From NCBI RefSeq assembly GCF_001592435.1, contig NZ_CP014750.1:434001-498000 (forward strand): a stretch of DNA of 64,000 bases, in the 5' to 3' direction. The notes below the pieces were generated by a model. That model was not told the DNA's origin, made no database searches, and worked only from the letters and a program-made list of their open reading frames with translations. This document shows, piece after piece, positions 2,690 to 62,635 of the stretch. The translations under genes and the position numbers were made by a program. Positions within the stretch are counted from its first letter, which is position 1. Each line of letters opens with the position of its first letter. Source of the stretch: Thermococcus peptonophilus. GTDB lineage: Archaea > Methanobacteriota_B > Thermococci > Thermococcales > Thermococcaceae.

Positions 2690-3445
2690 ATGAGGGAGAT
2701 AGAGATAAGCAGGGCGATAGTTGAGGCATACTTCAACGACTTCCTCCAGAACCTCCAGCTTGACGTTGCCATAGTCGGGGCTGGCCCGTCAGGAATGGTG
2801 GCCGGATATTACCTCGCCAAGGGCGGCGCGAAAGTAGCCATCTTCGAGAAGAAGCTCTCCGTGGGAGGAGGAATCTGGGGCGGGGCGATGGGATTCAACC
2901 GTGTCGTCGTCCAGGAGAGCGCGAGGGAGGTTCTCGACGAGTTTGGCGTGGATTACAGGTCAGTTGGAAACGGCCTCTACGTTCTCGACTCGATAGAGCT
3001 CGCCTCGACGCTCGCCAGCAAGGCGGTGAAGATGGGGGTGAAGATATTCAACATGGTAGAGGTAGAAGACCTCGTGGTTAAGGACGGCAGGGTCTCGGGA
3101 CTGGTAATAAACTGGACCCCCGTTATGATGACGGGCCTTCACGTTGATCCGCTCACCGTTGAGGCGAAGTTCGTGATTGATTCAACCGGTCACGGAGCGC
3201 AGATCAGCCAGCACCTTCTCAAGCGCGGCCTGATAAAGGCCATACCAGGAGAGGGTCCGATGTGGGCCGAGAAGGGCGAGGAACTCACCGTTGAGCACAC
3301 AAAGGAGGTCTTCCCGGGGCTCTACGCAACGGGGATGGCGGCTAACGCCCTGGCCGGAGCTCCGAGGATGGGTCCGATATTCGGTGGCATGCTCCTGAGC
3401 GGGAGGAAAGCTGCCCTTGAAATCCTTCAGAAGCTCGAAAAGTGA
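2690..3445 (+). CDS. thi4: Thi4-type thiazole synthase (ribose-1,5-bisphosphate isomerase family, His variant)
   Basis: Makes the thiamine thiazole moiety from NAD-derived substrate. The 251-residue protein has a dinucleotide-binding motif GAGPSG near residue 31 and the downstream GGGIWGGAMGFN block typical of Thi4. Where yeast Thi4 has its sacrificial cysteine (C-M-D-P) this protein has LHVDP with His at about residue 151, the archaeal type known to use exogenous sulfide and iron rather than consuming itself. ATG 2690 follows GGTGGT. A GTG at 2681 lies within the leader. The thiDN start follows immediately, so the two form an operon. Confidence 0.92.
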   Translation: MREIEISRAIVEAYFNDFLQNLQLDVAIVGAGPSGMVAGYYLAKGGAKVAIFEKKLSVGGGIWGGAMGFNRVVVQESAREVLDEFGVDYRSVGNGLYVLDSIELASTLASKAVKMGVKIFNMVEVEDLVVKDGRVSGLVINWTPVMMTGLHVDPLTVEAKFVIDSTGHGAQISQHLLKRGLIKAIPGEGPMWAEKGEELTVEHTKEVFPGLYATGMAANALAGAPRMGPIFGGMLLSGRKAALEILQKLEK

Positions 3446-3450
3446 TGTCC

Positions 3451-4749
3451 ATGGCCGTGCTCATCATAGCTGGCCTCGACACTGGCGGCGGGGCAGGGCT
3501 GAAGGCTGACATCGAAACCGTCTCGGCCCTTGGCGAGCACCCGCTCCCGGTAGTTTCCGCGATAACCTATCAAAACCCGGACGAGGTTAGGGGGGTCTTT
3601 CCAGTACCACCAAATACTATCAGGGAACAGATAAGGGCCGTTAAGGGTGTCTTTGAAATTAGGGCTGTCAAAATAGGCCTTCTTCACGGCGGTGCAGTGA
3701 AGGTCATAGCCGAGGAGACGAAAGGGCTCATTAGAGTCCTCGATCCGGTCATAGCTTCCTCTTCAGGCTTTCGGTTTTTAAGCCCTGAAGATGTCGAGAT
3801 ACTGAAGAGAGAGCTCCTCCCAGGCTCGATAGTTACCCCGAACGTCCCTGAGGCAGAGGTTCTAACGGGCCTGAAAATAAACTCCATAGAGGACATAAAA
3901 AGGGTTGCACGAGTTCTAGTAGAGGAGCTGGGCGCAGAGGCTGCTATTGTCAAGGGTGGACACCTGAACTTCACCGACGTCCTCTACTGGAATGGGGAGG
4001 TCTTCAAGTTTTCAGGGGAGAGGGTTGAGGGCTTCACTCACGGGACGGGCTGCGTCTTCTCTTCGGCTCTGGCAGCTTTCATAGCCAAGGGCCTTGAGCT
4101 TCCGAAGGCCGTCGAGAGGGCAAAGCGCTTCGTCGAGGGGGCGATAAGGTTCTCAGGGGGAGAAGGAGAGGCCGTCAATCCTCTCTGGGAGCTTCAGAGA
4201 GATACTCAGAGGTGGATGGCCAAGGAAGATCTTGAAAAAGCAGTCGGTGAGCTTGTGAAACTCGGCGAACTCCTGAACCCGCACGTTGCTGAGGTAGGCA
4301 CCAACTTTGCCCTGGCAACTGACTTCGGCGAAGTCTTCGCAGTTAAGGGCCGCATTGTCCGCTACGGCAAAACGATAAAGCCAGTGGGGCCGGTTGAGCT
4401 CAACGCCAGCGATCACCTCAGGAGAGCTCTCCTGAAGATGAGGGAGTTCTACCCCGAGGTCAGAGCGGTTATCAACCTCCGCTATTCAGAGAAGCTCATC
4501 AAGAGGGCAGAAAAGCTTGGACTGAAGGTTTCCTTCTACGACCGCAGGGAAGAGCCGGAGGAAGTCAAGAGGGCCGAGAGGGGTACAATGGAGTGGGGCA
4601 TTGAGAGCGCCGTGAAAAGGCTTGGAGAGAAGCCCAACGTGATCTATCACCTCGGCGACTGGGGAAAGGAGCCGATGATACTCGTGTTTGGCAGGAATGC
4701 TGAAGAGATCGTCGAGAGAATAAGAAACCTTATTTTTGCCAGTCAGTAG
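3451..4749 (+). CDS. thiD: Bifunctional HMP/HMP-P kinase and thiamine-phosphate synthase (ThiD-ThiN)
   Basis: Residues 1 to about 255 are a ribokinase-fold ThiD, with GLDTGGGAGLKAD at the N-terminus and the anion-hole motif THGTGCVFSS near residue 200. Residues about 262-432 are a ThiN domain (GELLNPHVAEVGTNFALA), which acts as thiamine-phosphate synthase in archaea lacking ThiE. ATG 3451 is preferred because GTGAT lies 4 bases upstream. ATG 3445, overlapping the thi4 stop as TGATG, is the alternative. With thiC and thi4 it supplies both halves of thiamine and their coupling. Confidence 0.92.
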   Translation: MAVLIIAGLDTGGGAGLKADIETVSALGEHPLPVVSAITYQNPDEVRGVFPVPPNTIREQIRAVKGVFEIRAVKIGLLHGGAVKVIAEETKGLIRVLDPVIASSSGFRFLSPEDVEILKRELLPGSIVTPNVPEAEVLTGLKINSIEDIKRVARVLVEELGAEAAIVKGGHLNFTDVLYWNGEVFKFSGERVEGFTHGTGCVFSSALAAFIAKGLELPKAVERAKRFVEGAIRFSGGEGEAVNPLWELQRDTQRWMAKEDLEKAVGELVKLGELLNPHVAEVGTNFALATDFGEVFAVKGRIVRYGKTIKPVGPVELNASDHLRRALLKMREFYPEVRAVINLRYSEKLIKRAEKLGLKVSFYDRREEPEEVKRAERGTMEWGIESAVKRLGEKPNVIYHLGDWGKEPMILVFGRNAEEIVERIRNLIFASQ

Positions 4750-4768: not shown

Positions 4769-5521
4769 TCAAAACGGAAGACCGGGGATTGGGCCATAGA
4801 GAAGCCTCAAAAGCCCAACAAAGATTGGCTGGTGGATGAGGTACACCTTCAGGGTATGCCTGCCCATAAAGGTCAGGAAGTGAACCGCTGGACTTTGAGG
4901 AAGGGGAAGGTGTCGTTTTCTTGTCCCGTTTGGATAGAAAAAGCTCCCCCCAGCCATTCCAAGCAGGTAGACACCGAACCATGGGAATATAGGGAAGTAG
5001 TCAGGGGCAAAGTAATCCTTGGGCATAATGCCCAGGGGAAGGAGAAAAATGCCATCGTGGATGTTCCTTACGAGAAAATACCCAAGAAGGAAAAACAACG
5101 CCCAAATTATGTTTGTTATGCCGAACCTGTAAAACGGAATACCAAGAAGAGCCGCTGCACCGAGAAAGTGAAGAATCCCAAAGTGTATCGTCATTCTTTC
5201 GGGAAGGAAGGAAGTGATGAGAGTTATGATCATCCCGAGACCGAAGAGCTTGAGAAAGCGCCTGAAATACTTGGTGTAGGGGGAAGAGCTTCGCTTCAGG
5301 GCCCTTGAATAGCTCACCCAGAAGGAGAGACCTGAAGTAAAAACGAATATCGTTGCCGTGGCAATCGCAAAGAGAAGCCAGAACATCCGGTGTTCATTGT
5401 AACCCAGAAAAAGCTGTAGATCAGTCACAAAGTTCGAGACTATCATCATCGTTATGCCTACTCCTCTAAGCAGGTCTATCTCCCAGTAGCGTCCCCTTCC
5501 ATACACCTCAGCGCCCAGCAT
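4769..5521 (-). CDS. DUF1624 / HGSNAT-like multi-pass membrane protein
   Basis: 250 residues with about seven hydrophobic helices. The N-terminus RYWEIDLLRGVGITMMIVSN and the C-terminal FLTFMGRHTLKVYLIHQPIF are hallmarks of the heparan-alpha-glucosaminide N-acetyltransferase-like acyltransferase family (DUF1624), which transfers acyl groups across membranes. The substrate is unknown. It is shorter than the eukaryotic family members. It converges with thiDN with a 19-base gap and has no obvious partner genes. The ATG at 5521 is weakly supported, since there is no clear GGTGA upstream. Confidence 0.75.
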   Translation of the reverse strand: MLGAEVYGRGRYWEIDLLRGVGITMMIVSNFVTDLQLFLGYNEHRMFWLLFAIATATIFVFTSGLSFWVSYSRALKRSSSPYTKYFRRFLKLFGLGMIITLITSFLPERMTIHFGILHFLGAAALLGIPFYRFGITNIIWALFFLLGYFLVRNIHDGIFLLPLGIMPKDYFAPDYFPIFPWFGVYLLGMAGGSFFYPNGTRKRHLPLPQSPAVHFLTFMGRHTLKVYLIHQPIFVGLLRLLYGPIPGLPF

Positions 5522-5619
5522 TGGAGTTACTTTTGGAAGAAATGTTAATAGTGTTTTCGTTTGTCCTCTCTTGGAGCTAACGTTATAACATCTTTTCCCT
5601 ATTTTTACTGGTGGCTCTC

Positions 5620-7545
5620 ATGATAGTGCGAGGAAAGGTCACTGGAAACGAAATCCCGAGGTTCAAGCACCGCTGGTTCGGCGTTCTTGATGTTGATGCC
5701 GGAGAGAAGTACAGGCTCTATATGACTGGAAACGCAGCCCAGTGGTTTCTGACCGGTGACGAGGTTGAGATTGAAGTCCTCGGAAAGCCGAAGGAAAGAA
5801 ACGGCGTTAAGGTTCTTGACTTCGACGACTACCGTCTTTGGAAGTTCTACAACGGCGAGAAGATCCCGGTCTGGCCCCTCTGGGAGAAGGAGCTTGAAGC
5901 AAAGCGCTATTCTCCGCTGACGGGCGAGCTCCTCTATACCTACAAAATCCGGGCGAGAGAAGCTAAATACGAGTCCGACTTCGAGGCGATAGCCGAGCTC
6001 GAGCAGTACCACTACGCGAGCCAGAAGGAGAAGGTAGCGCTGTGGCGCTGTGAGAACGGCCACATCTTCGAGGCTAACACGAAGCAGGCCTGTCCCGTCT
6101 GTGGGAGCGAGGATGTCCACATACTCGAAATCAAGGGCTCAACTCCGGCCTCACGCTTCCTGATCCTCGAGCTCGTTGAGAGAGAGGAGTACGAGCCGAG
6201 GATTCTCAGCTACGTCCGCGTTGACCCGCCTATACCTCTAATGCACCGCAGACTGCCGAACGGAGAAATCGAGAAGAACATCCGCGAGAGGGTCTTCCCA
6301 GAGGACTGGTTCCACCCGGCATTCTGGCCGGAGAGGATAATGCGCGAGCTCTACGAGGAGCTGAAGAAGAAGTACAAGAAGAGGGTTGCCCGCTCGTACC
6401 TCTGGGAGGAGGCCAAGTGGAAGGCTCTGAAGGAGACGAACACCGCGGGGGCGAGGATAGCCAGGGTTGTAGTTCATCCCGACTACCGCTCCGACGGCCT
6501 CGGCCAGCTGAGCGTTAAGGCCGCGCTCGAGTGGATAGCCGAGCGCAGAATTCCGGAGATGAGGAAGAGGAAGCACATAGTCGAGACAATAGCCCAGATG
6601 GCCCGCTACAACCCGTTCTTCGAGAAGGTTGGCTTCAAGTTCCTCTGGGAGACTGCAAGCGGAAGACCCGTGCTCTTCTACCCGCTGACCGAGGAGGCGA
6701 GGGAGTACATAGAACGCTTCCTGAAGGAAGACCCGCACGCCCCAAAGGACGGAAGGCTCTGGCGTCCGAGCTACGGAAAGGTCGAGCCTCTGAGCGGGCC
6801 GATAGCCTTTAAAGACGTCAGCAAGGTCTTCGAGAGTGAGCTCGACGTGAAGGGTCTTCCAAAGGAGATAAGGGAGCTTTTGGAGGCGTTCGGCGTCAGG
6901 CACCGCGTCATCCAGAGGCCCGTCCTTCGGAACCTCAACTTCGAGATAAAACCCGGCGAGCTCATAGCGGTCGTGGGTGCGAGCGGAGCTGGAAAGACCA
7001 CCCTCCTGAGGCTAATTTTGGGGGCGGCCAACGGCTGGTGGGAGGAGCGCTTCAGGCCGACGACTGGAGAGATAGAAGTCCCCAAGAACGTTAAGGTCTC
7101 CGTTATGATACCCGGTGAGTTCGAGCCGAGCTTTGGGACTGAGAGCATACTTGAGCACGTTTACAGGAAGATAGGCGACCTTAACGCGGCAGTTGAAGTC
7201 CTTAACAGGGCTGGACTGAGCGACGCAGTCCTCTACAGGGCGAAGTACTCCGAACTGAGCACGGGGCAGAAGGAGAGGGCTAGAATAGCCTCGCTCCTCG
7301 CTGAGAAACCTAATCTACTCCTCATAGACGAGTTCGCGGCACACCTTGACACTCTAACGGCCATGAGGGTTACAAGGAAAGTTGCCGAGATAATCCGAGA
7401 GGCTGGAATAACCGCGCTCATAATCACCCACAGGCCGGAAGTCCTAAAGGCCCTTGATCCGGACAGGGTGCTCTTCGTCGGCTACGGAACCGCGAGGGTT
7501 CAGAGCGCGCAGAGCACGTCGAAGAAAGCCGAACCGAGCCAGTGA
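5620..7545 (+). CDS. ABC-type ATPase fused to zinc ribbon and GNAT acetyltransferase-like domain
   Basis: 641 residues with a rare architecture. An N-terminal region of about 140 residues is followed by a zinc ribbon (CENGH and CPVCG, about residues 143-165), a GNAT-like segment with VVVHPDYRSDGLG near residue 285, then an ABC ATPase with Walker A GASGAGKTT near 453, signature LSTGQKERA near 546 and Walker B LLLIDEF near 566. There are no membrane segments, so it is not a transporter by itself. It matches the archaeal family described as ABC-type ATPase fused to a predicted acetyltransferase (COG2401). ATG 5620 is chosen for the GGTGG 5 bases upstream. Its 3' end overlaps the convergent CPBP gene by 46 bases. 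Confidence 0.85.
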   Translation: MIVRGKVTGNEIPRFKHRWFGVLDVDAGEKYRLYMTGNAAQWFLTGDEVEIEVLGKPKERNGVKVLDFDDYRLWKFYNGEKIPVWPLWEKELEAKRYSPLTGELLYTYKIRAREAKYESDFEAIAELEQYHYASQKEKVALWRCENGHIFEANTKQACPVCGSEDVHILEIKGSTPASRFLILELVEREEYEPRILSYVRVDPPIPLMHRRLPNGEIEKNIRERVFPEDWFHPAFWPERIMRELYEELKKKYKKRVARSYLWEEAKWKALKETNTAGARIARVVVHPDYRSDGLGQLSVKAALEWIAERRIPEMRKRKHIVETIAQMARYNPFFEKVGFKFLWETASGRPVLFYPLTEEAREYIERFLKEDPHAPKDGRLWRPSYGKVEPLSGPIAFKDVSKVFESELDVKGLPKEIRELLEAFGVRHRVIQRPVLRNLNFEIKPGELIAVVGASGAGKTTLLRLILGAANGWWEERFRPTTGEIEVPKNVKVSVMIPGEFEPSFGTESILEHVYRKIGDLNAAVEVLNRAGLSDAVLYRAKYSELSTGQKERARIASLLAEKPNLLLIDEFAAHLDTLTAMRVTRKVAEIIREAGITALIITHRPEVLKALDPDRVLFVGYGTARVQSAQSTSKKAEPSQ

Positions 7546-23075: not shown

Positions 23076-24296
23076 ATGATACTCCAGGTCGCTCTTGACC
23101 TTACCGATATTGAGCAGGCCATTTCTATAGCGGAGAAAGCCGCCCGCGGCGGGGCACACTGGCTTGAGGTCGGCACTCCCCTCATCAAGAAGGAGGGTAT
23201 GAGAGCAGTAGAGCTCATGAAGAGGCGCTTCCCCGACAGGAAGATAGTTGCAGACCTCAAGACCATGGACACAGGTGCCCTTGAGGTCGAGATGGCCGCG
23301 AGGCACGGTGCAGACGTCGTTTCTATCCTGGGCGTTGCCGACGACAAGACCATCAAGGATGCAGTTGAGGTCGCGAGGAGATATGGAATCAGGGTCATGG
23401 TTGACCTGATCGGCGTCAAGGACAAGGTGAAAAGGGCCAAAGAGCTTGAGAAGATGGGCGTCCACTACATCCTCGTCCACACTGGAATTGACGAGCAGGC
23501 CCAGGGCAAGAACCCGCTCGAAGACCTTGAGAAGGTAGTAAAGGCCGTCAAGGTTCCGGTTGCGGTCGCTGGAGGCCTGAACCTTGAGACGATCCCAAAA
23601 GTCATAGAGCTCGGCGCCACGATAATCATTGTTGGAAGCGCCATAACCAAGGCCAAAGACCCTGAAGAAGTCACCAGGAGAATAATAGACCTCTTCTGGG
23701 GCGAGTATATGATGACGATAAGGAAGGCGATGACAGACATAACCGACCACATAAGGAGCGTCGCCGAGAACCTCAAGCTCGAACAGGTCAGGGGACTGGT
23801 AGATGCCATGATAGGAGCCAACAAGATATTCATCTACGGCGCCGGAAGGAGCGGACTCGTTGGAAAGGCCTTTGCGATGAGGCTCATGCACCTCGACTTC
23901 AACGTCTACGTCGTCGGAGAGACAATCACACCAGCATTCGAGCCGGGCGACCTCCTCATAGCCATCAGCGGTTCGGGTGAGACAAAGACCATCGTTGATG
24001 CCGCCCAGATAGCGAAGGAGCAGGGCGGAAAGGTCGTCGGCATAACTTCCTACGCGGACTCAACACTCGGAAAGCTCGCCGATGTTGTCGTCGAGATTCC
24101 GGGAAGGACGAAGGCCGATGTCCCCACTGACTACATAGCCAGGCAGATGCTCACCCAGTACAAGTGGATAGCCCCGATGGGAACTCTCTTCGAGGACTCC
24201 ACTATGGTCTTCCTTGACGGCATTATAGCACTCCTCATGGCCACGTTCCAGAAGACCGAAAAGGATATGAAGAGGAAGCACGCGACCCTTGAGTGA
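23076..24296 (+). CDS. hps-phi: Fused 3-hexulose-6-phosphate synthase / 6-phospho-3-hexuloisomerase
   Basis: Bifunctional ribulose-monophosphate pathway enzyme, 406 residues. Residues 1-210 are HPS, an orotidine-decarboxylase-fold domain (MILQVALDLTDIEQAISIAE, KIVADLKTMDTG, VPVAVAGGLN). Residues about 215-406 are PHI, a SIS domain (FIYGAGRSGLVGKAFAMRL, LLIAISGSGETK). In Thermococcales this fused enzyme runs in reverse to make ribulose 5-phosphate from fructose 6-phosphate, replacing the oxidative pentose-phosphate pathway. T. kodakarensis TK0475 is the characterised counterpart. ATG 23076 follows CCGGAGGTCGAGTC. Confidence 0.96.
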   Translation: MILQVALDLTDIEQAISIAEKAARGGAHWLEVGTPLIKKEGMRAVELMKRRFPDRKIVADLKTMDTGALEVEMAARHGADVVSILGVADDKTIKDAVEVARRYGIRVMVDLIGVKDKVKRAKELEKMGVHYILVHTGIDEQAQGKNPLEDLEKVVKAVKVPVAVAGGLNLETIPKVIELGATIIIVGSAITKAKDPEEVTRRIIDLFWGEYMMTIRKAMTDITDHIRSVAENLKLEQVRGLVDAMIGANKIFIYGAGRSGLVGKAFAMRLMHLDFNVYVVGETITPAFEPGDLLIAISGSGETKTIVDAAQIAKEQGGKVVGITSYADSTLGKLADVVVEIPGRTKADVPTDYIARQMLTQYKWIAPMGTLFEDSTMVFLDGIIALLMATFQKTEKDMKRKHATLE

Positions 24297-24304
24297 GGGT
24301 CGCG

Positions 24305-25048
24305 ATGTTTTCATTTACCCATATTTTTGCTGGAATTGGCAGCAATGGCTCAAGGATAGTCAATGGAATCGAAACGGACTCCGTGGTAAAGGTATCTTTG
24401 AATCCAGCCAGGTACATCCTGCGGCCTAAGGAATATCGGGAAAGGATTGTGAACTTCTTCTCTAACGTTCCCGAAAACAGCTTTGTGTGGCTCGTCTTTG
24501 ATGACACAAAGATAAATAGAGAAATTATGGAGATAATCCTTGAAGCACTCCCCCCGGATTCTATAAGGCTCGCTTATGTCCTTACGCCTAAAGTGGAGCT
24601 GATCAACCGGAAACCCGAATGGGCGGATAAGTTCGAGACGGTGTTCTACGACTCCCTCTGGGACTTCTTAAAAGAAGACGTGCCGCTCGGAAGGGCCTTT
24701 GAGGAAGCTTCAAAGAACATTTCGGAGATGTTCTCAAAGCTCTATCACTACCTTGAAAGCGAGATGCTCGTGAACATAGACTATGCAGACTTATTCAGCA
24801 TGATACGGGGAGGAAACGTTGGTATAATGCGCCTTCTCCGCGAGGTTGACTTCAGCTGGCACTGGGGCATCTGGGAGCGCGGGCTTGTTGGAATACTTGT
24901 CGGTGAAGACTTCCCGCTGAGCGGTGCTCACAGAATACTCTCCAAGTTCCAGGAGATACTCTCTGAGAAGGACATAATCTGGGGCGTGATCACCGACAAA
25001 AACGTTAAAGGTTCCGAAGTCCTCGCCCTCCTTGTGAAGAGGTGGTGA
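24305..25048 (+). CDS. Divergent FtsZ/tubulin-like protein lacking the GTP-binding signature
   Basis: 247 residues with the layout of FtsZ but a lost nucleotide site. The N-terminus FAGIGSNGSRIVNGI resembles the FtsZ GxGGxGxN loop. SEMLVNIDYADLFSMIRGGNVGIM matches the FtsZ segment after helix 7 (LINLDFADV, then a glycine). DIIWGVITDKNVKGSEVLALLVK matches the C-terminal strand region (NIIWGAIVDP). The tubulin signature GGGTGTG is absent: the equivalent region reads FVWLVFDDTKINREIM. The call rests on pattern similarity only. ATG 24305 is preferred over GTG 24293 (which overlaps the hps-phi stop) because GTGAGGG sits upstream. First gene of a tight five-gene operon. Confidence 0.6.
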   Translation: MFSFTHIFAGIGSNGSRIVNGIETDSVVKVSLNPARYILRPKEYRERIVNFFSNVPENSFVWLVFDDTKINREIMEIILEALPPDSIRLAYVLTPKVELINRKPEWADKFETVFYDSLWDFLKEDVPLGRAFEEASKNISEMFSKLYHYLESEMLVNIDYADLFSMIRGGNVGIMRLLREVDFSWHWGIWERGLVGILVGEDFPLSGAHRILSKFQEILSEKDIIWGVITDKNVKGSEVLALLVKRW

Positions 25049-25049
25049 T

Positions 25050-25703
25050 ATGGGCAGGATAAAGGCCGTTCTCTTTGACATCGATGGCACACTGCTAACT
25101 GAAATGCCCCTTATTCAGCTCTTTCTCCCGCAGGTGTACGAAAAGCTGGCAAAAAAGCTGGAAACTACCAAGGAAGAGGCCAGGAACGTGTTTCTGTCCG
25201 AGATATTCTCAAGGCGAGACACCTACGACTGGCACGACTGGAACTTTTTCTTTGAGCTTTTTGGCCTCAATATGCAGTATGAAGACCTTCTGAAGAGGTA
25301 CCCACACAAGCTCCACGTTTATCCGGACACCATTCCGACTCTTGAGTGGCTTAAAGAGTCCGGGTACCGTCTGGGAGTTGTCACGAGCGGGCCCGAATAC
25401 CAGCGCCTTAAGCTCAAGCTGACGGGGCTCGAAGGGTACTTCGATGTCATCGTGACCAGAGAGGACGTTAAGGCGATAAAACCCGAACCAAAGATATTCC
25501 TCTACGCCCTTGAAAAACTCGGAGTTGAACCAAAAGAGGCCGCTTTCGTTGGGGATTCTCTGAGCCAGGACGTTTATGGGGCGAAGCACGTTGGCATGCT
25601 CTCAATATGGATAAACCGTGAGGGCGAACCCGGGCATCACTTAGCGGACTATGAAATCAGGACGCTCCACGAGCTTAGAAAAATACTGGGGGTGGTAGAA
25701 TGA
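25050..25703 (+). CDS. HAD-superfamily hydrolase
   Basis: 217-residue phosphatase-like protein. Motif I is VLFDIDGTLL at residues 7-16, motif II GVVTSG near 110, the conserved Lys in AIKPEPKIF near 147 and motif IV AFVGDSLSQDVYGAK near 170. A helical cap lies between residues 20 and 85, as in phosphoglycolate phosphatase-like or pyrophosphatase-like members. The substrate cannot be read from sequence. ATG 25050 follows GGTGGTGAT, 1 base after the preceding stop. Confidence 0.85.
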   Translation: MGRIKAVLFDIDGTLLTEMPLIQLFLPQVYEKLAKKLETTKEEARNVFLSEIFSRRDTYDWHDWNFFFELFGLNMQYEDLLKRYPHKLHVYPDTIPTLEWLKESGYRLGVVTSGPEYQRLKLKLTGLEGYFDVIVTREDVKAIKPEPKIFLYALEKLGVEPKEAAFVGDSLSQDVYGAKHVGMLSIWINREGEPGHHLADYEIRTLHELRKILGVVE

Positions 25704-25888
25704 AGAAGGTGTTCGAAGGGAAAGGAACGTTTGTTGAATACGAAGAGGAGAAGGTAAAGCTTGAGAACGGCCACGAGCTGACTCACAGGCGCGAAAACCC
25801 GATGGAGCTCTGGTGGAAGTTAAAGGAAGCCATCAAAGGCAAGAAAGTTAAGATCGTGGCCTATGAGCTGGAGGAGAGCGAAGACTGA
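25700..25888 (+). CDS. Small conserved hypothetical protein, 62 residues
   Basis: A highly charged mini-protein beginning MKKVFEGKGTFVEYEEEKVKLE. Alternating charged and hydrophobic residues suggest a small beta barrel followed by a helix (MELWWKLKEAIKGKKVKIV). Unrecognised. It overlaps the HAD gene by 4 bases (ATGA) and the next gene by 1 base (TGATG), so it is embedded in the operon and very likely translated. Confidence 0.7.
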   Translation: MKKVFEGKGTFVEYEEEKVKLENGHELTHRRENPMELWWKLKEAIKGKKVKIVAYELEESED

Positions 25889-26700
25889 TGATTGCCCACC
25901 TTGTAAACACCGACGTTGGAAGCAGGGGAATAGGAAGGCTGTATCTTGACTACCGCATCAGAAACTTCCATTTTTTAGAGGACGCCGCTGAGACGTTCCT
26001 CAACAGCCTTGAGAGAACTCTTATATTAACTGGCTTCCCGATTCCGCCTTCTATGACTCCCGAAACTGACGGCCCACCTGGGGCCTTGGCAGTCGCAAAA
26101 GCCGTAGAAAAGCTCGGAGGAAGGGTAGAAGTCCTCAGCTATCCGGAGGTAATGGGAGCATTGGGGTCGTTTGGCGTCACTTTTGCAGGGTACGTTGATA
26201 TCTCATCCTACTCGCTGGTCGTCGCCATTGAGACTCCCGGAAGGGCAGTTGACGGCAGGTACTACTCCATGAGTGGCATGGAAATAACAAGAGAGGCCTT
26301 TGACAGGCTGGTAATTGAGGCGAGAGAATACGGAATCCCAACAATAGCGGTTGGTGACGGTGGAAACGAAGCTGGAATGGGCAACGTCAGGGATCTAATT
26401 GAGCTGTACATTCCACTTGGAGAAAAGATAGCCAGTGTAGTTGAGGTTGATCACCTTATAACGGCTGGAGTGTCGAACTGGGGTGCCTACGGGCTGGTGG
26501 CGCAGGCTTCAATCTTAGCCGGCACAAATCTCCTTGCAGACTGGGACGAAGAGAAGGTAGTAAAAGCCCTAACAAGCGCCGGGTTGATAGATGGAGTTAG
26601 AAAGAAACCCAGTGAGAGCGTGGACGGGATCGGCCTTGAAGTCCATAAGGAAGTCGTTGAGCTTTTAAAGGTGCTCGTTAATGATGCCCTAGGTGGTTGA
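25888..26700 (+). CDS. DUF4392 / D-glutamate cyclase-like protein
   Basis: 270 residues. The segment LTGFPIPPSMTPETDGPPGALAVAKAVEKLGG is characteristic of the DUF4392 domain found at the C-terminus of mitochondrial D-glutamate cyclase (which converts D-glutamate to 5-oxo-D-proline). Later blocks include AIETPGRAVDGRYYSMSG and IAVGDGGNEAGMGNVRDL. Cytoplasmic, no membrane segments. The archaeal substrate is unproven. Translationally coupled (TGATG) to the 62-residue gene upstream and abutting the HD gene downstream. Confidence 0.75.
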   Translation: MIAHLVNTDVGSRGIGRLYLDYRIRNFHFLEDAAETFLNSLERTLILTGFPIPPSMTPETDGPPGALAVAKAVEKLGGRVEVLSYPEVMGALGSFGVTFAGYVDISSYSLVVAIETPGRAVDGRYYSMSGMEITREAFDRLVIEAREYGIPTIAVGDGGNEAGMGNVRDLIELYIPLGEKIASVVEVDHLITAGVSNWGAYGLVAQASILAGTNLLADWDEEKVVKALTSAGLIDGVRKKPSESVDGIGLEVHKEVVELLKVLVNDALGG

Positions 26701-27321
26701 ATGAAGCTTGAGGAGTTCATATCTGACCCGAAGTCAAGGGAGCTGATAGAGATTGTCAGGGAGTTCGCCAAAAGCTTCTTCGACAGGGAGGGCACGCATG
26801 GGTTCAGCCACGTTGAGAGGGTCTTCAACCTCTGCATACATATCGGGAAAGAAGAGGGGGCTGATTTAGAAGTCCTCGCCCTGGCGGCGCTTCTCCACGA
26901 CATTGCCCGCCCGCTGGAGGATTCAGGGAAAGTCGAGGACCACGCCCTTGAGGGGGCAAGGATAGCGAGGAGGTACCTGAGAAGCCTCGGTTATCCCGAA
27001 GACAAGGTGGAAGCAGTTGCCCACGCGATAGAGGCCCACCGCTTTTCACGTGGACCTAAACCGGCCACACTTGAGGCAAAGATCCTGAGCGATGCCGATA
27101 AGCTCGACGCAATAGGGGCCGTGGGGATAGCGAGGGTCTTTATGTACTCAGGGGAGCATGGAAGGGACATAGACGCCTCAATAAAGCACTTTGAGGAGAA
27201 GATACTGAAGCTGAAAGACTTGATGTACACAGAAACCGCGAGAAAGATGGCCGAAGGGAGACACCGCTTTACCGAGGAGTTTATTGAGCGACTTAGGCGT
27301 GAGATAGAGGGTGAAATCTGA
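26701..27321 (+). CDS. HD-domain phosphohydrolase
   Basis: 206 residues. Metal-binding HD pattern is complete: HGFSHVERVFNLCIHI near residue 27 (first His), AALLHDIARP near 62 (HD), HAIEAHRF near 106 and ILSDADKLDAIGAVG near 125 (final Asp). Members act on nucleotides or other phosphomonoesters and phosphodiesters, and specificity cannot be told. Last gene of the operon from 24305. A hairpin and T-run follow the stop. Confidence 0.85.
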   Translation: MKLEEFISDPKSRELIEIVREFAKSFFDREGTHGFSHVERVFNLCIHIGKEEGADLEVLALAALLHDIARPLEDSGKVEDHALEGARIARRYLRSLGYPEDKVEAVAHAIEAHRFSRGPKPATLEAKILSDADKLDAIGAVGIARVFMYSGEHGRDIDASIKHFEEKILKLKDLMYTETARKMAEGRHRFTEEFIERLRREIEGEI

Positions 27322-51395: not shown

Positions 51396-51457
51396 CGGTT
51401 TTGTTCCTCGAAACCTTAAAATAACTTTAGGGAGACCTAAGGGGTGGGGTGAGAGAA

Positions 51458-54340
51458 ATGGTGCCGCTGAAGAGGATAGACAAGATCCGCTGGGAGATAC
51501 CAAAGTTCGACAAGAGAATGAGAGTACCGGGAAGGGTCTACGCTGATGACCAGCTCATCGAAAAGATGAGGCAGGACAGGACGCTTGAGCAGGCAGCGAA
51601 CGTCGCCATGCTCCCGGGCATCTACAAGTACTCCATCGTAATGCCGGACGGACACCAGGGCTACGGCTTCCCAATTGGTGGAGTGGCCGCCTTTGACGCA
51701 AAGGAGGGCGTAATAAGCCCCGGAGGTGTGGGATACGACATTAACTGCCTTGCTCCTGGCACCAAAGTCCTCACGGAGCACGGATACTGGCTGAACGTTG
51801 AGGAGATGCCCCAGAAGTTCAAGCTCCAGGGACTCAGAGTATACAATACTGAGGAAGGGCACAACGACTTCTCAAGGGTCGCCTTCGTGGCCGAGAGGGA
51901 AGTTGAAGAGGGCGAGAAGGCCGTCAGGATAGTTACCGAGGGCGGAACAGTTGTGGAGGGAAGTGAGGATCACCCAGTTCTAACCCCAGAAGGCTACATA
52001 TACCTTAAGAACGTCCAAGAGGGAGATTATGTTCTGGTATACCCCTTCGATGGCGTCCCCTACGAGGAGAGGAGGGGTATTCTGCTCGATGAAAGCGCCT
52101 TCGAAGACGAAGACCCGCAGGTAATAAAGTTCCTCCGCGAGAAGAACCTCATTCCTCTCCGCTGGGACGACCCGAAGATTGGAACCATTGCGAGGATACT
52201 TGGCTTTGCCCTGGGAGACGGACACCTCGGCGAGATGAGCGGAAGGCTTACCCTCAGCTTCTATGGAAAGGAGGAAACGCTGAGGGAACTCAAGAAAGAC
52301 CTTGAAGGGCTCGGCATCAGCGCCACCCTCTACGTCCGCGAGAGGGACTATGAGATAGAGACCGTGAGCGGACGCTACAGTGGCAAGAGCCTCTCGGCAG
52401 AACTAAGGGTGGCATCCAGAAGCTTTGCCCTCCTGCTTGAGAAGCTCGGAATGCCGCGTGGAGACAAGACGAATAAGAGCTACCGCGTCCCTGAGTGGAT
52501 AATGGAAGCCCCGCTCTGGGTGAAGAGGAACTTCCTGGCTGGGCTATTCGCCGCTGACGGGAGCATTGTGGAGTTCAAAGGAGTGACACCACTCCCGATA
52601 AACCTGACACAGTCCAGAGAGGAAGAGTTCGAAAAGAGCCTGCTGGAGTTCATGAACGACGTGGCCAGGCTCCTCGAAGAGTTTGGAATCAAGAGCACCG
52701 TTTACAAGGTAAAGTCGAAGAAGGGCGTTACCTACCGCCTGGCCCTCGTCGGGGAAGAAAGCATCAGGAACTTCCTGGGCAAGATCAACTACGAGTACGA
52801 CCTCGAGAAGAAGGAGAAAGGTCTGATAGCTTACGCCTACCTCAAGTTCAAGGAGCGCGTGAAAGAAGAGAGAAAGCGAGCGATGGACACCATCAAGCGG
52901 GTCTATGCGGAGACGGGAAGCGTGGAGCTTGCATATCTCAAGGTTAAGGATACCGTGAACAGGCGCTTCGTTGAGAGGACGATATACGAAGGAGATAGAG
53001 AGCCGAGGGTTCCAAAGGACTTTCCAACCTTCGAGGAGTTCGCCAGGGAGAAAGGCTACGAAGGGGGTTTCGTCGCTGAAAAGGTCGTTAGAGTTGAGCG
53101 CGTTACACCTGAATACGACAGGTTCTATGACATCGGCGTCTACCACGAGGCCCACAACTTCATAGCAAACGGCGTCGTTGTCCACAACTGCGGCGTCAGG
53201 CTCATCAGAACCAACCTTACCAAAGACGATGTAAGACCGAAGATCAAAGAGCTCGTTGACACCCTCTTCAAGAACGTTCCGAGCGGACTTGGAAGCAAGG
53301 GCCGTGTGAGGCTCCACTGGACCCAGCTCGACGATGTCCTCGCCGACGGCGCCAAGTGGGCGGTTGAGAACGGCTACGGCTGGGAGAGAGATTTAGAGCA
53401 CCTCGAAGAGGGTGGAAGGATGGATGGGGCAGATCCCGATGCCGTCAGCCAGAAGGCGAAGCAGAGGGGTGCACCACAGCTCGGTTCCCTTGGCTCTGGA
53501 AACCACTTCCTCGAGGTTCAGTACGTTGACAAGGTGTACGATGAGAGGATAGCAAAGGCATACGGCCTCTTCGAGGGGCAGGTCGTCGTGATGGTGCACA
53601 CGGGAAGCAGGGGACTTGGCCACCAGGTTGCGAGCGACTACCTGAGAGTCATGGAGAGGGCTAACAGGAAGTATGGAATCCCGTGGCCGGACAGGGAGCT
53701 GGTGAGCGTTCCCTTCCAGAGCGAAGAGGGGCAGAGGTATTTCAGCGCGATGAAGGCCGCCGCCAACTTCGCCTGGGCAAACAGGCAGATGATAACCCAC
53801 TGGGTCAGGGAGAGCTTTGAGGAAGTCTTCAAGAGGAAAGCGGAAGACATGGAGATGGAGATCGTCTATGATGTCGCCCACAACATAGCAAAGCTTGAGG
53901 AGCATGAAGTTGACGGGAGAAAAGTAAAGGTCGTCGTTCACAGGAAGGGCGCAACGAGAGCATTCCCATCTGGCCACCCGGACGTTCCTAAAGCCTACCG
54001 CGCCGTCGGTCAGCCTGTCCTAATCCCAGGCTCAATGGGTACCGCAAGCTACGTCCTCGCTGGAGCGGAAGGTTCAATGAAGGAGACCTTTGGAAGTACA
54101 TGCCACGGAGCAGGAAGGCTGTTAAGCAGGAAGGCCGCAACCAGGCAGTACCGCGGCGACAGGCTCAGGAACGAGCTCCTCCAGAAGGGTATCTACGTGA
54201 GAGCCGCCTCCCTCCGCGTCGTTGCAGAGGAAGCTCCTGGTGCCTACAAGAGCGTGGACAACGTTGTCCAGGTCGTCCACGAGGCAGGAATAGCAAACCT
54301 CGTGGCGAGAATGAGGCCGATGGGAGTGGCCAAGGGATGA
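51458..54340 (+). CDS. rtcB: RNA ligase RtcB containing an intein
   Basis: RtcB joins 2',3'-cyclic phosphate and 5'-OH ends of tRNA exons. 960 residues precursor. Residues 1-96 and the part after the intein form the ligase: [67 protein letters not shown] near the guanylylated His site. The mature enzyme is about 479-480 residues, as in Pyrococcus horikoshii PH1602. ATG 51458 follows GGTGAGAGAA. GTG 51449 is in the ribosome-binding site. Last gene of the archease cluster. Confidence 0.96.
51746..53188 (+). mobile_element. RtcB intein with LAGLIDADG homing endonuclease
   Basis: 481-residue intein inserted directly before the metal-binding cysteine of RtcB (GYDIN / CGVRL). It starts [15 protein letters not shown] (Cys1), has block [11 protein letters not shown] near residue 70, two LAGLIDADG-type motifs ([11 protein letters not shown] near 152; [11 protein letters not shown] near 265), block [22 protein letters not shown], and ends His-Asn before Cys. 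All splice residues and both endonuclease aspartates are present, so splicing and perhaps homing are likely active. Confidence 0.95.
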
Positions 54341-59518: not shown

Positions 59519-61030
59519 TCAGATGTTGCCGATTCGCTGGAGAACCATCCCCTCTATTCTTATCGGTTCGGTCCTTCTGGCGAGGACTATCGCCTGGTCA
59601 AGCCTCGCCTCGTGCTCGGCGTGTATCGTGAAGAGCGGGTCGCCCTCTTTGACCTTCTCCCCGACCTTGACGTAGAGCTCGATTCCAGCTCCCTTGTCCT
59701 CCGGCGCTCCAGCGGCCCTAGCTATGGCAGTTATCGCCCTGTTGTCTATGGCGGTGACGTAACCGCTCGTGGCGGCGGTGAAGGTATATGTCTTGTCGCC
59801 GATGGGTATCTCCTCGGGCTTGATGTTCGAGTCTCCACCCTGAGCCTCGATGATCTCCTTCATCTTTTCCCAGGCCTTGCCGCTCTCAAGGATTTCTTTG
59901 GCCATCTTCTTGCCGGTTCCGGCCGGTGCAACGCCGCCCATCTCAAGGAGTATTCCAGCCAACCCGGTGGCCTTTTCTATGAGGCTTCCAGGCCCTCTGC
60001 CCGTCATGAGAGCTGAAAGGGCTTCCCTGGCTTCGAGTGCCGGGCCAACGGTGTGGCCTATCGGCTGACCGCCGTAGGTTATTGCAACCTCGACGTACTG
60101 ACCGAGCCTCTTTCCAAGCTCTATGAAGTCTCTGGCAAGACTCCTTGCCTCCTCAACAGTCTCCACTTTGACACCCTTTCCAGTTGGGATGTCGATGAGA
60201 ACGTACTGGCTACCCATAGCGTACTTCTTTGACATTATGCTAGCCAGCATCAGCCCGGTTGGGTCGATGCTCAGTGCACGCTCGGCCTTGATCGTTATAT
60301 CGTCAGCGGGAGCAAGGTTGAGCGCACCGCCCCAAACCAGACATGCCCCCACCTTCTCGACGATGCGTTTTATTTCGTCGAGGGAGAAGCTGACGTTTGC
60401 GAAGACCTCAACCACGTCTGCCGTTCCGGCGGCGCTGGTGATAGCTCTTGAGCTGGTCTTGGGTATCGTAAGACCGGCCGCGGCCACTATTGGAACAACG
60501 AGAATGTTGGTCTTGTTTCCTGGAACGCCGCCGATGCTGTGGACGTCCATTATCGGCTTCCTGTCAATGTCGAGCATGTCTCCTGTCTCTGCCATCGCTA
60601 TGGTTAGGGCCGCTATCTCGTCCATGTCAAGGCCATTTATCTCAAGGGCCGTCACGAAGGAGCTTATCTCGATGTCCCTGAGCTTTCTGTCAACGATATC
60701 TCTAACAATGGACTCAATCTCGACCTTTCTCAGCTTCTCGCCGCGCATCTTCTTCTTGATGTAGCGGACGCTCTCGGGGGTTCCGGCTGGAATGACGCTA
60801 ACGGTTTCGCCCTCCGAGAAGTTGTGGAGATCGAGGATGTCCCTGCTTATGCCGACCTCACCTTTCTCGACAAGGTTGCTGAGGGCAACACTGCCGTAGA
60901 CTGCTTTTTTGCCTGCCTCTATCTTAACGAGGTCATCCGGATGGAGCTTAGCCTCTTTGGCATCTTCCTCATTTATTAGAACCGTGTACCTCCCGCTGAA
61001 CATATCGAGTATGCGGATCTTAGCTTTCAC
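59519..61030 (-). CDS. deoA: AMP phosphorylase
   Basis: 503 residues, thymidine-phosphorylase-like fold with the 84-residue archaeal N-terminal domain ([24 protein letters not shown]). Catalytic-domain blocks are [14 protein letters not shown] near residue 170, [18 protein letters not shown] near 193 and [15 protein letters not shown]. kodakarensis TK0352 is the characterised homologue. It phosphorolyses AMP to adenine and ribose-1,5-bisphosphate, feeding ribose-1,5-bisphosphate isomerase and type III RuBisCO. A Thi4-related enzyme in this window should not be confused with that isomerase. Confidence 0.95.
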
Positions 61031-61480: not shown

Positions 61481-61729
61481 TCAAAGGTTCCTGACTTCCT
61501 CGTCTATCGATTCTTCAAGGGCCTTCTCCCAGTCGTCGACGTCGAACTGCTCAAGCTCGCCCTCCAGCTCCTCCTTAAGGTTGAGGACACGACGTTTGAG
61601 TGCGGTTTTTGTCTCCTCGTCGTAGACGACGTAGTATGGGTTGTTCTTAGCGGATAGGTAGAGCATTGTAAGGACTATCACTAGGATGAGCAGGATGACC
61701 AGTAGTGCGTACAGTACTACTCCTGCCAT
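61481..61729 (-). CDS. Small single-pass membrane protein coupled to MinD
   Basis: 82 residues: a single N-terminal membrane helix (VVLYALLVILLILVIVLTMLYL) and an acidic cytoplasmic tail with helical character (LNLKEELEGELEQFDVDDWEKALEES). The ATG overlaps the minD stop (TGATG), so translation is coupled to the ATPase. No family recognised. The layout suggests a membrane anchor or adaptor for the MinD-like protein, which is inference. Confidence 0.7.
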   Translation of the reverse strand: MAGVVLYALLVILLILVIVLTMLYLSAKNNPYYVVYDEETKTALKRRVLNLKEELEGELEQFDVDDWEKALEESIDEEVRNL

Positions 61730-62508
61730 CACCTCTTCCCCCCGAATATTGCCTTGAAGACTCTCTTTATCGGGCTCTCCGGCTCGGGTGGCTGCCACTT
61801 GATTCCGGCAAGCTTCGCGGCCAGCTGCTTGATTGCTATTGCTGCGGGACTGGTGGGGTTCTTGATGACAAGCGGGACACCGTAAGCGCTTGCACGCTTG
61901 ACCTCAGGGTCCTCGGGGATCATGGCCAGGACGGGAACCTCAAGAATGGCCTCAATCTCATCCCTGGTCAGCTCGGTCTTTTCGTTGGTGACCCTGTTGA
62001 GAATGACACCGAGCGGGAGCGTTCCGAGCTTCTCCGCTATGAGCTTTGTTTTCAGGGAGTCAGTGATAGCTGAAATCTCCGGATTTGTAACAACTATAAG
62101 CTCCTTTCCAATGAGGAGCGCTGTAACGGATGTCATTTCAAGACCCGCTGGAGCGTCAATGAGAATGAAGTCCGCGAGCTGGCTTATCTCCCTCATAAGC
62201 TCCCTAAGCCTCTCGGGCTTGGCCTTCTTGACCTTCTCCAGGCTGAGTCCACCGGGAATAACCTTAACTCCTGCCGGTCCTTCATATATCGCATCTTTGA
62301 GATCAGCTTCCCTGGCAAGAACGTCGTGCAGTGTTACGGGTATGTCCTCCATTCCGAGGACGAGGCTCAGGTTTGCCATAGTCAGGTCAGCGTCCAGCAG
62401 AATCACTTCCTTGCCGAACTGTGCCAGAGCCACACCAAGGTTGGCGACAGTCGTGGTTTTACCCGTTCCACCCTTTCCAGAGGCAAAAACTATTGATCTG
62501 CCTTCCAA
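61729..62508 (-). CDS. minD: MinD/ParA-family ATPase
   Basis: 259 residues. Deviant Walker A GKGGTGKTT near residue 11, switch I LLDADLTMANLSL near 36 and Walker B FILIDAPAGLEM near 115. The C-terminus IKRVFKAIFGGKR is a short amphipathic basic helix of the membrane-targeting kind. MinC/MinE partners are unknown in archaea. MinD-like proteins there affect pole organisation and motility or cell shape. TTG 62508 after GGGGGTG with 6 bases spacing is preferred, and GTG 62517 inside that site is the alternative. Confidence 0.88.
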   Translation of the reverse strand: MEGRSIVFASGKGGTGKTTTVANLGVALAQFGKEVILLDADLTMANLSLVLGMEDIPVTLHDVLAREADLKDAIYEGPAGVKVIPGGLSLEKVKKAKPERLRELMREISQLADFILIDAPAGLEMTSVTALLIGKELIVVTNPEISAITDSLKTKLIAEKLGTLPLGVILNRVTNEKTELTRDEIEAILEVPVLAMIPEDPEVKRASAYGVPLVIKNPTSPAAIAIKQLAAKLAGIKWQPPEPESPIKRVFKAIFGGKR

Positions 62509-62635
62509 ACTCAGCACCCCCGATCAAAACTATGGCATCTGAATTTGAGTATGCCTAACGCCACCTACATAAAAAGTCCTTTTAGCCTTTGTGGTGATAT
62601 CCAAAAAAATAAAATGTGTCCAAGGACACATTTAA

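Follow-up and report, generated by a model that had tools for sequence, protein, structure and literature searches.

The open reading frame at positions 24305–25048 of the window, by which we mean the whole 64,000-nt stretch of Thermococcus peptonophilus DNA analyzed here, encodes a distant, shortened FtsZ, a reduced paralog of the FtsZ2 type in which, judged by sequence, the nucleotide half-site of the GTPase has been lost and the catalytic half-site kept. It is a fourth protein with a tubulin fold in nearly every Thermococcales genome, one that goes uncounted by the PF00091 (Tubulin) model.

Gene and operon

The gene lies on the forward strand, begins with an ATG at 24305 and, with the stop codon included in the interval given above, specifies 247 amino acids; an alternative in-frame start, a GTG at 24293, would yield a protein of 251. 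The host genome measures 1.90 Mb in two contigs, and relatives of the locus come from assemblies of Thermococcus and other Thermococci. The initial annotation had placed the gene at the head of an uncharacterized operon, and neither part of that description holds. The same-strand run of genes opens upstream, with a fusion of 3-hexulose-6-phosphate synthase and 6-phospho-3-hexuloisomerase (Hps-Phi; 23076–24296, forward strand; NF041755, 555.5 bits against a cutoff of 500) that ends 8 nt before the FtsZ-like gene, and two of the neighbors have relatives with solved structures, namely a HAD-family hydrolase (25050–25703, forward strand; TIGR02253, 180.9 bits against a cutoff of 169.75; PDB 4ygq, E 1.3e-110) and a TON_0340-like probable Mn-dependent phosphatase (25888–26700, forward strand; PF14336, E 3.5e-69, labeled by Pfam as D-glutamate cyclase-like C-terminal; PDB 4dwz, which is TON_0340, E 7.5e-106). 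Between these two lies a conserved 62-aa protein (25700–25888, forward strand) with no Pfam match above the cutoff, an LWW...KG motif and a structural model of two strands and one helix (pTM 0.57); the run continues with an HD-domain phosphohydrolase (26701–27321, forward strand; PF01966, E 3.6e-20). The description of four tightly coupled genes behind the FtsZ-like gene was accurate: the 8-nt gap after Hps-Phi is followed along the run by a 1-nt gap, overlaps of 4 and 1 nt, and a spacing of 0 nt.

No division gene was found in the operon using the list of open reading frames, Pfam and NCBIfam, and the operon neighbors are metabolic enzymes. As described in PMC12628685, Hps-Phi in these archaea converts fructose-6-phosphate into ribulose-5-phosphate and formaldehyde and supplies ribose-5-phosphate for nucleotides; PMC5132392 reports that TON_0340 is probably an Mn-dependent phosphatase, the substrate of which is unknown.

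Gene order was compared across 52 loci, three of which were fetched twice, leaving 49 distinct ones. The place of the FtsZ-like gene between hps-phi and the HAD gene is fixed: hps-phi immediately precedes the gene on the same strand in 51 of the 52 loci, the single exception beginning at a contig end, and the HAD gene follows downstream in 52/52. The gene for the 62-aa protein is present in 51 loci, the remaining one being truncated by a contig end; for the TON_0340-like gene the count is 45/52. The spacing from hps-phi to the FtsZ-like gene is 5–53 nt in 46 of the 51 loci, with wider gaps of 187 nt in two copies of one locus and of 830–861 nt in three loci. By eye, a phosphoglycerate-mutase-like gene occupies positions 4914–5645 of locus L086, between hps-phi and the FtsZ-like gene, and a similar extra gap after hps-phi is seen in loci L088 and L090.

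Relationship to FtsZ in sequence and fold

A family alignment of 69 unique proteins was compared with FtsZ and CetZ sets built by BLAST (9 FtsZ2, 32 FtsZ1 and 24 CetZ sequences). By hhalign, the family matched FtsZ2 with an E-value of 2.1e-13 (score 97) and FtsZ1 with an E-value of 6.9e-9 (score 66), whereas the comparison with CetZ was non-significant (E 0.05, score 21); the closest resemblance is thus to FtsZ2, and the profile comparison gives no support for membership in CetZ. Searched alone, the window protein has nothing in Pfam at E ≤ 1, and its match to TIGR00065 (NCBIfam ftsZ) extends over residues 113–171 at E 1.6e-4, with a score of 21.1 bits that misses the equivalog threshold of 295.2. 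Nevertheless, every one of 13 family members is matched by TIGR00065 at E ≤ 0.1, the best at 1.6e-5; at the same threshold, PF12327 (FtsZ C-terminal domain) matches seven of the 13 (best 6.2e-4), the window protein not being among them, PF00091 matches none of the 13, and PF13809 (Tubulin_2) is absent among their matches. A profile of the 13 members searched against the PDB recovered the FtsZ of M. jannaschii at E 5.7e-6, with the H7-T7 and S8-S9 stretches both in register.

An AlphaFold2 model built from the 13 sequences has a pTM of 0.77 and a mean pLDDT of 71, which is about 90 over residues 1–90 and below 50 over residues 155–158 (in T7), 181–192 and 221–247 (the C-terminal 27 residues). 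The fold of the model is that of FtsZ/tubulin. In the fold comparison, which had been set beforehand as the refuting test, the 50 best PDB chains in Foldseek were all FtsZ (best E 1.2e-5; TM 0.43–0.60 by query length), and VIA-align over residues 1–247 gave Z 15.3 to CetZ 3zid (rmsd 4.6, 235 residues aligned) and Z 13–14 to many FtsZ structures (rmsd about 4.3), the best FtsZ row, at 14.4, being in effect a tie with the 15.3 of CetZ. The explanation that the resemblance to FtsZ is fortuitous and reflects no relationship has in its favor the failure of the window protein alone to match any Pfam model; set against an hhalign E-value of 2e-13, FtsZ and CetZ at the head of the structure lists, and TIGR00065 matches in every one of the 13 members, its probability is negligible, and we reject it.

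With FtsZ2, and with FtsZ generally, the protein shares the order S1-T1, S4, S5, S6, H7, T7, H8, S7, S8, H10, S9, S10, as well as the T7 motif N-x-D-x-x-D and the IxWG strand, all within 247 aa against ~400–430 aa for the FtsZ2/FtsZ open frames. Other divergent FtsZ families, FtsZl1 and FtsZl2, are described in PMC2875224 (Makarova and Koonin 2010) and resemble the present family in being divergent prokaryotic members of the FtsZ superfamily that exist beside canonical FtsZ. According to that source, FtsZl2 keeps T1, T4, T6, T7 and H7, and FtsZl1 is alignable up to H5 but not over T6-H7 and the C-terminal domain; the FtsZ-like protein is the reverse of FtsZl1, being devoid of T4 and possessing H7-T7 and the C-terminal domain. 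Membership in FtsZl1/FtsZl2 (Tubulin_2) is rejected, given the lack of a PF13809 match and the loss of T4.

Elements lost and kept

The reference for this comparison comprised 41 FtsZ1 and FtsZ2 sequences, among which 104 alignment columns are at least 95% identical; 13 of these 104 columns are kept, that is, conserved in at least 90% of the family: G10, G12 and G15 in T1, T112 and V113 in S6, A131 in H7, N157, D159 and D162 in T7, and L178, L205, W226 and G227. By sequence and model, the canonical GTP pocket is lost. At the position of the T4 signature (GMGNGTGTG in FtsZ), the window protein reads DDTKIN (residues 66–71; 24500–24517, forward strand); the T4 glycine columns of FtsZ are not glycine in the family, where GGGTGTG is replaced by a DD-TKIN-like sequence with an asparagine, N71, identical in 69/69 proteins. 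Around T3, ~27 alignment columns are deleted, and the T5 region and the Asp/Gln of T2 are likewise gone. The protein also lacks the H2-S3-H3 stretch, helix H9 and the C-terminal tail, and its last residue is an invariant Trp.

What is retained of T1 is a glycine loop, G-I-G-x-x-G (residues 10–15; 24332–24349, forward strand), that aligns with the FtsZ element, with G10 and G12 found in all 69 proteins and G15 in 68. The central helix H7 (residues 128–152; 24686–24760, forward strand), helical in the model and aligned with FtsZ H7, is followed by the T7 synergy loop (residues 153–162; 24761–24790, forward strand), in which the N-x-D-x-A-D motif (LVNIDYADLF in the window protein) has N157, D159, A161 and D162 in 69/69, the first, second and fourth of these being FtsZ-invariant columns as well. 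The remainder of the C-terminal domain (S8, H10, S9 with IIWG, and S10; residues 193–247; 24881–25045, forward strand) is delineated by the FtsZ alignment and the PDB profile match; IIWGV aligns with strand S9, and I225, W226 and G227 are present in 69 of 69 proteins. The landmarks listed in the initial annotation, namely an FtsZ-like N-terminal glycine loop, a core block resembling the FtsZ LINLDFADV region, an FtsZ-like C-terminal IIWG block and the missing GGGTGTG, are all borne out by these alignments. Its suggestion that the protein is inactive fits the loss of the nucleotide half-site and does not fit the catalytic (T7) half-site, which the whole family keeps.

In S. aureus FtsZ, two conserved aspartates are catalytic and N208 contacts the Mg and K sites, as described in PMC8936486; by our own reading of the NLDFAD motif, N157, D159 and D162 correspond to N208, D210 and D213 of that protein. 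The FtsZ-invariant columns are kept at 8/37 in the H7-T7-C-terminal half and at 5/67 in the GTP half, a non-significant difference (Fisher p 0.06), so we claim selective retention for the T7 triad and not for the whole half.

Conservation within the family is not confined to T7. The lowest mean entropy among 19 regions, 0.15 bit compared with 1.24 bit over the whole protein, belongs to the family-specific, nearly invariant S6-T6 block TVFYDSLW (residues 112–119; 24638–24661, forward strand), and the longer S5-T6 stretch to which it belongs, LAYVLTPxxEL...KPxWA..FETVFYDSLW (residues 89–119), is among the most conserved parts of the protein, along with the T1 glycines and N71. Because these parts are so highly conserved, the top face is better described as remodeled than as decayed, and may have a ligand or partner of its own. 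A further stretch, WHWGxWxRG (residues 185–193), follows the place of the missing H9 and has W185, W187, G188, W190 and G193 in 69/69 proteins.

Distribution of the family

A full-length copy (E below 1e-100) was identified in 88 of the 94 Thermococcales genomes. Among the others, the copy of G064 is truncated by a contig end, and no copy was found in five (G035, G049, G056, G061 and G063); because hps-phi is itself absent from three of these five and cut at a contig end in the other two, the locus is probably unassembled in these genomes and not lost. One genome, G069, carries an intact copy plus a second, partial operon in which the FtsZ-like gene is broken over two frames (2777–3232 of locus L065 and the neighboring frame, minus strand) and is adjoined by open frames of the HAD, phosphatase and HD-like kinds.

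Elsewhere in the phylum, the remaining 21 genomes yielded no full-length family match, only canonical FtsZ and the F3 group discussed below, and a single scan for close relatives beyond the phylum returned 12 loci, all of Thermococci. Proteins matching PF00091 were found in 115/115 genomes of the phylum, so that canonical FtsZ GTPases are present in every one; the usual count per Thermococcales genome is three, which, following PMC9856176 as far as its available text goes and our BLAST grouping, we take to be FtsZ1, FtsZ2 and CetZ.

A second FtsZ group without the GTP signature

An FtsZ-like protein of ~309 aa (F3) occurs in nine of the ten genomes of a sister family (f3) of the same class and is absent from the tenth, G100. 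The five sequences used for comparison are encoded at 3532–4458 of locus L047, 3969–4895 of L048 and 3505–4431 of L051 on the minus strand, and at 1021–1947 of L049 and 3911–4837 of L050 on the plus strand. All five lack GGGTGTG, have an intact T7 (LVNIDFADF) and IIWGV, and match the Pfam FtsZ_C model (best E 8e-20). In F3, 21 of the 37 FtsZ-invariant columns are kept in the H7-T7-C-terminal half against 7 of 67 in the GTP half (p 1e-6).

Like the Thermococcales protein, F3 has a T4 shortened by one residue and containing an invariant Asn; it differs in retaining the H2-H3 stretch and H9, in its FtsZ_C match (E 1.6e-19) and in its gene neighborhood. An S15-like gene was noted by eye near the F3 gene in L047, L048 and L050, and an XTP/dITP-pyrophosphatase-like gene in two of these three loci. 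The best tree of a joint-origin analysis (43 rows, including 12 of the 69 family proteins) joins F3 with the Thermococcales family at support 68/22, with long branches meeting, so that a common origin of the two is neither shown nor rejected. By their motifs, FtsZ proteins that seem dead toward GTP and keep T7 exist in two lineages of the class.

Proposed mechanism and alternatives

As described in PMC8936486, two adjacent FtsZ subunits form the active site jointly, the first contributing the nucleotide and the second the T7 aspartates, and monomers are believed to join through their GTP-bound top surface. We tentatively favor, with somewhat less than even confidence, a mechanism in which the FtsZ-like protein, expressed together with genes of pentose supply, regulates FtsZ by sequestration or capping: placed with its T7 face against GTP-loaded FtsZ, it would contribute the catalytic aspartates in trans and prevent the addition of further subunits. 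Specifically, its T7 face would dock on the GTP-loaded top face of FtsZ, most likely FtsZ2, mimicking the next subunit, and the two T7 aspartates supplied in trans would bring about hydrolysis of the GTP of the bound FtsZ. The top face of the FtsZ-like protein itself has no canonical means of carrying GTP, and for this reason no further subunit would be accepted there. GTP-FtsZ monomers would then be sequestered, or the GTP-exposed (shrinking) filament end would be capped and its turnover sped up, so that the protein would be both a regulator of FtsZ assembly and a trans-acting GTPase activator. Since incoming monomers are thought to add by the top surface, a protein possessing only T7 would compete for that surface; the contrast drawn in PMC8936486 between toxic bottom-interface FtsZ mutants and top-interface mutants suggests, however, that the effect on FtsZ may be modulatory and not blocking. 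Co-expression with Hps-Phi, which furnishes these archaea with pentose phosphates, would tie division to the supply of nucleotide precursors, a connection read solely from operon position.

The predicted fold, the FtsZ2 ancestry, the T7 residues in 69/69 proteins, the loss of T3-T4, the F3 group and the operon linkage speak for this mechanism; against it stand the half-versus-half p of 0.06, the conserved top face, the low pLDDT at T7 and the C-terminus, and the metabolic neighbors. The regulator of FtsZ polymers suggested by the initial annotation is compatible with the invariant T7 loop, and its other suggestion, a membrane-remodeling protein, found no particular support. We further regard as doubtful, though worth stating, the broader proposition that nature has produced a “half-site” FtsZ, which would serve as activator in trans and as cap by donating nothing but its T7 aspartates to GTP-bound FtsZ, which is fixed order-wide within the operon for pentose supply, and which in the sister family either arose anew or was likewise retained.

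The conserved top face and the metabolic neighbors could instead indicate a sensor or scaffold whose top face binds a sugar phosphate, a nucleotide or an operon enzyme (Hps-Phi, the HAD hydrolase or the 62-aa protein) and whose main job lies in the metabolism of pentoses or phosphate, and for which FtsZ contacts would be incidental, if they occur at all. The neighbors Hps-Phi and HAD, fixed in 51/52 and 52/52 loci, in an operon devoid of division genes, and the T1 glycines and the S5-T6 block (YVLTPxxEL, KPxWA, FETVFYDSLW), which rank among the most conserved parts, are in line with such a role, but it leaves unexplained the invariant T7 residues, kept again in F3, and we consider it unlikely while granting it real weight. 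If conservation of the longitudinal T7/H8 face is emphasized instead, together with the presence of canonical FtsZ GTPases in 115/115 genomes, the protein might enter FtsZ2 filaments independently of GTP, either as a structural co-polymer subunit or as an adaptor that anchors the filament end, linking the filaments to something else and not activating hydrolysis. Without a nucleotide pocket, however, the protein is unlikely to make a second longitudinal contact, and docking alone would not require invariant catalytic aspartates, so that we assign this explanation a low probability. Lower still is the probability that T7 and IIWG are a relic, kept just to hold the fold, and that the protein acts via another family-specific surface such as WHWGxWxRG; the strict conservation of that stretch beside the place of the missing H9 agrees with this, but N157 and D159 match residues that, in the account of PMC8936486, belong to the active site of FtsZ and not to its core.

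Comparison with known systems and significance

The mechanism favored here, with the T7 face docked on GTP-loaded FtsZ, has partial parallels among known regulators. The bacterial FtsZ-binding inhibitors MciZ and SulA are likewise small and occupy one longitudinal face of FtsZ; they are not FtsZ homologs. MciZ binds the bottom (T7) face of FtsZ (PMC8936486), whereas we propose that the FtsZ-like protein binds on the opposite side, at the face bearing GTP. In chloroplasts, ARC3 is, similarly, an FtsZ-derived regulator that restrains Z-ring assembly: it is treated as a negative regulator in PMC5877594 and as an FtsZ chimera in the title of a reference cited there; it differs in being a eukaryotic chimera with other domains. 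OpgH and UgtP, as far as they are described in the text available, link carbon metabolism to FtsZ as enzymes that restrain division according to nutrients, but are glucosyltransferases and not FtsZ relatives.

To our knowledge, the regulation of FtsZ assembly in archaea is largely open. Should the protein indeed donate its T7 aspartates, it would regulate division in an archaeon that is amenable to genetics and might connect division, at the molecular level, with the supply of pentoses and nucleotides; should the half-site proposition be true, FtsZ would be controlled via a degenerated FtsZ that acts on the GTP-bearing face. Even without such donation, the family is a clear instance of a cytoskeletal GTPase turned pseudo-GTPase, in which strict selection maintains one catalytic half-site.

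No description of the FtsZ-like family was found in the open-access literature, with subscription journals mostly outside this search. Queries with T. onnurineus locus tags returned papers on TON_0340 and one with TON_0336, and none on the FtsZ-like gene, whose counterpart in that species we presume from gene order to be TON_0337; candidate tags for T. kodakarensis, P. furiosus and P. horikoshii led to nothing relevant, and PF0219, considered as the P. furiosus tag for the gene, turned out to be a QueD. One survey (PMC9871819) is described as having gathered sequences with PF00091 as the query model, and surveys based on this model cannot see the FtsZ-like protein because it has no PF00091 match. 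The additional divergent proteins mentioned in the available text of PMC9856176 are confined to two Thermococcus strains, whereas the FtsZ-like family is order-wide.

Elsewhere in the window, inspection by eye pointed to a thymidine/AMP-phosphorylase-like frame at 59519–61030, possibly a pentose-metabolism gene, ~33 kb from the operon, and to a MinD-like ATPase frame at 61729–62517 on the minus strand, a candidate division or positioning gene. The frame at 51449–54340, also judged by eye from its translation, encodes an RtcB-like protein of 963 aa with an apparent intein.
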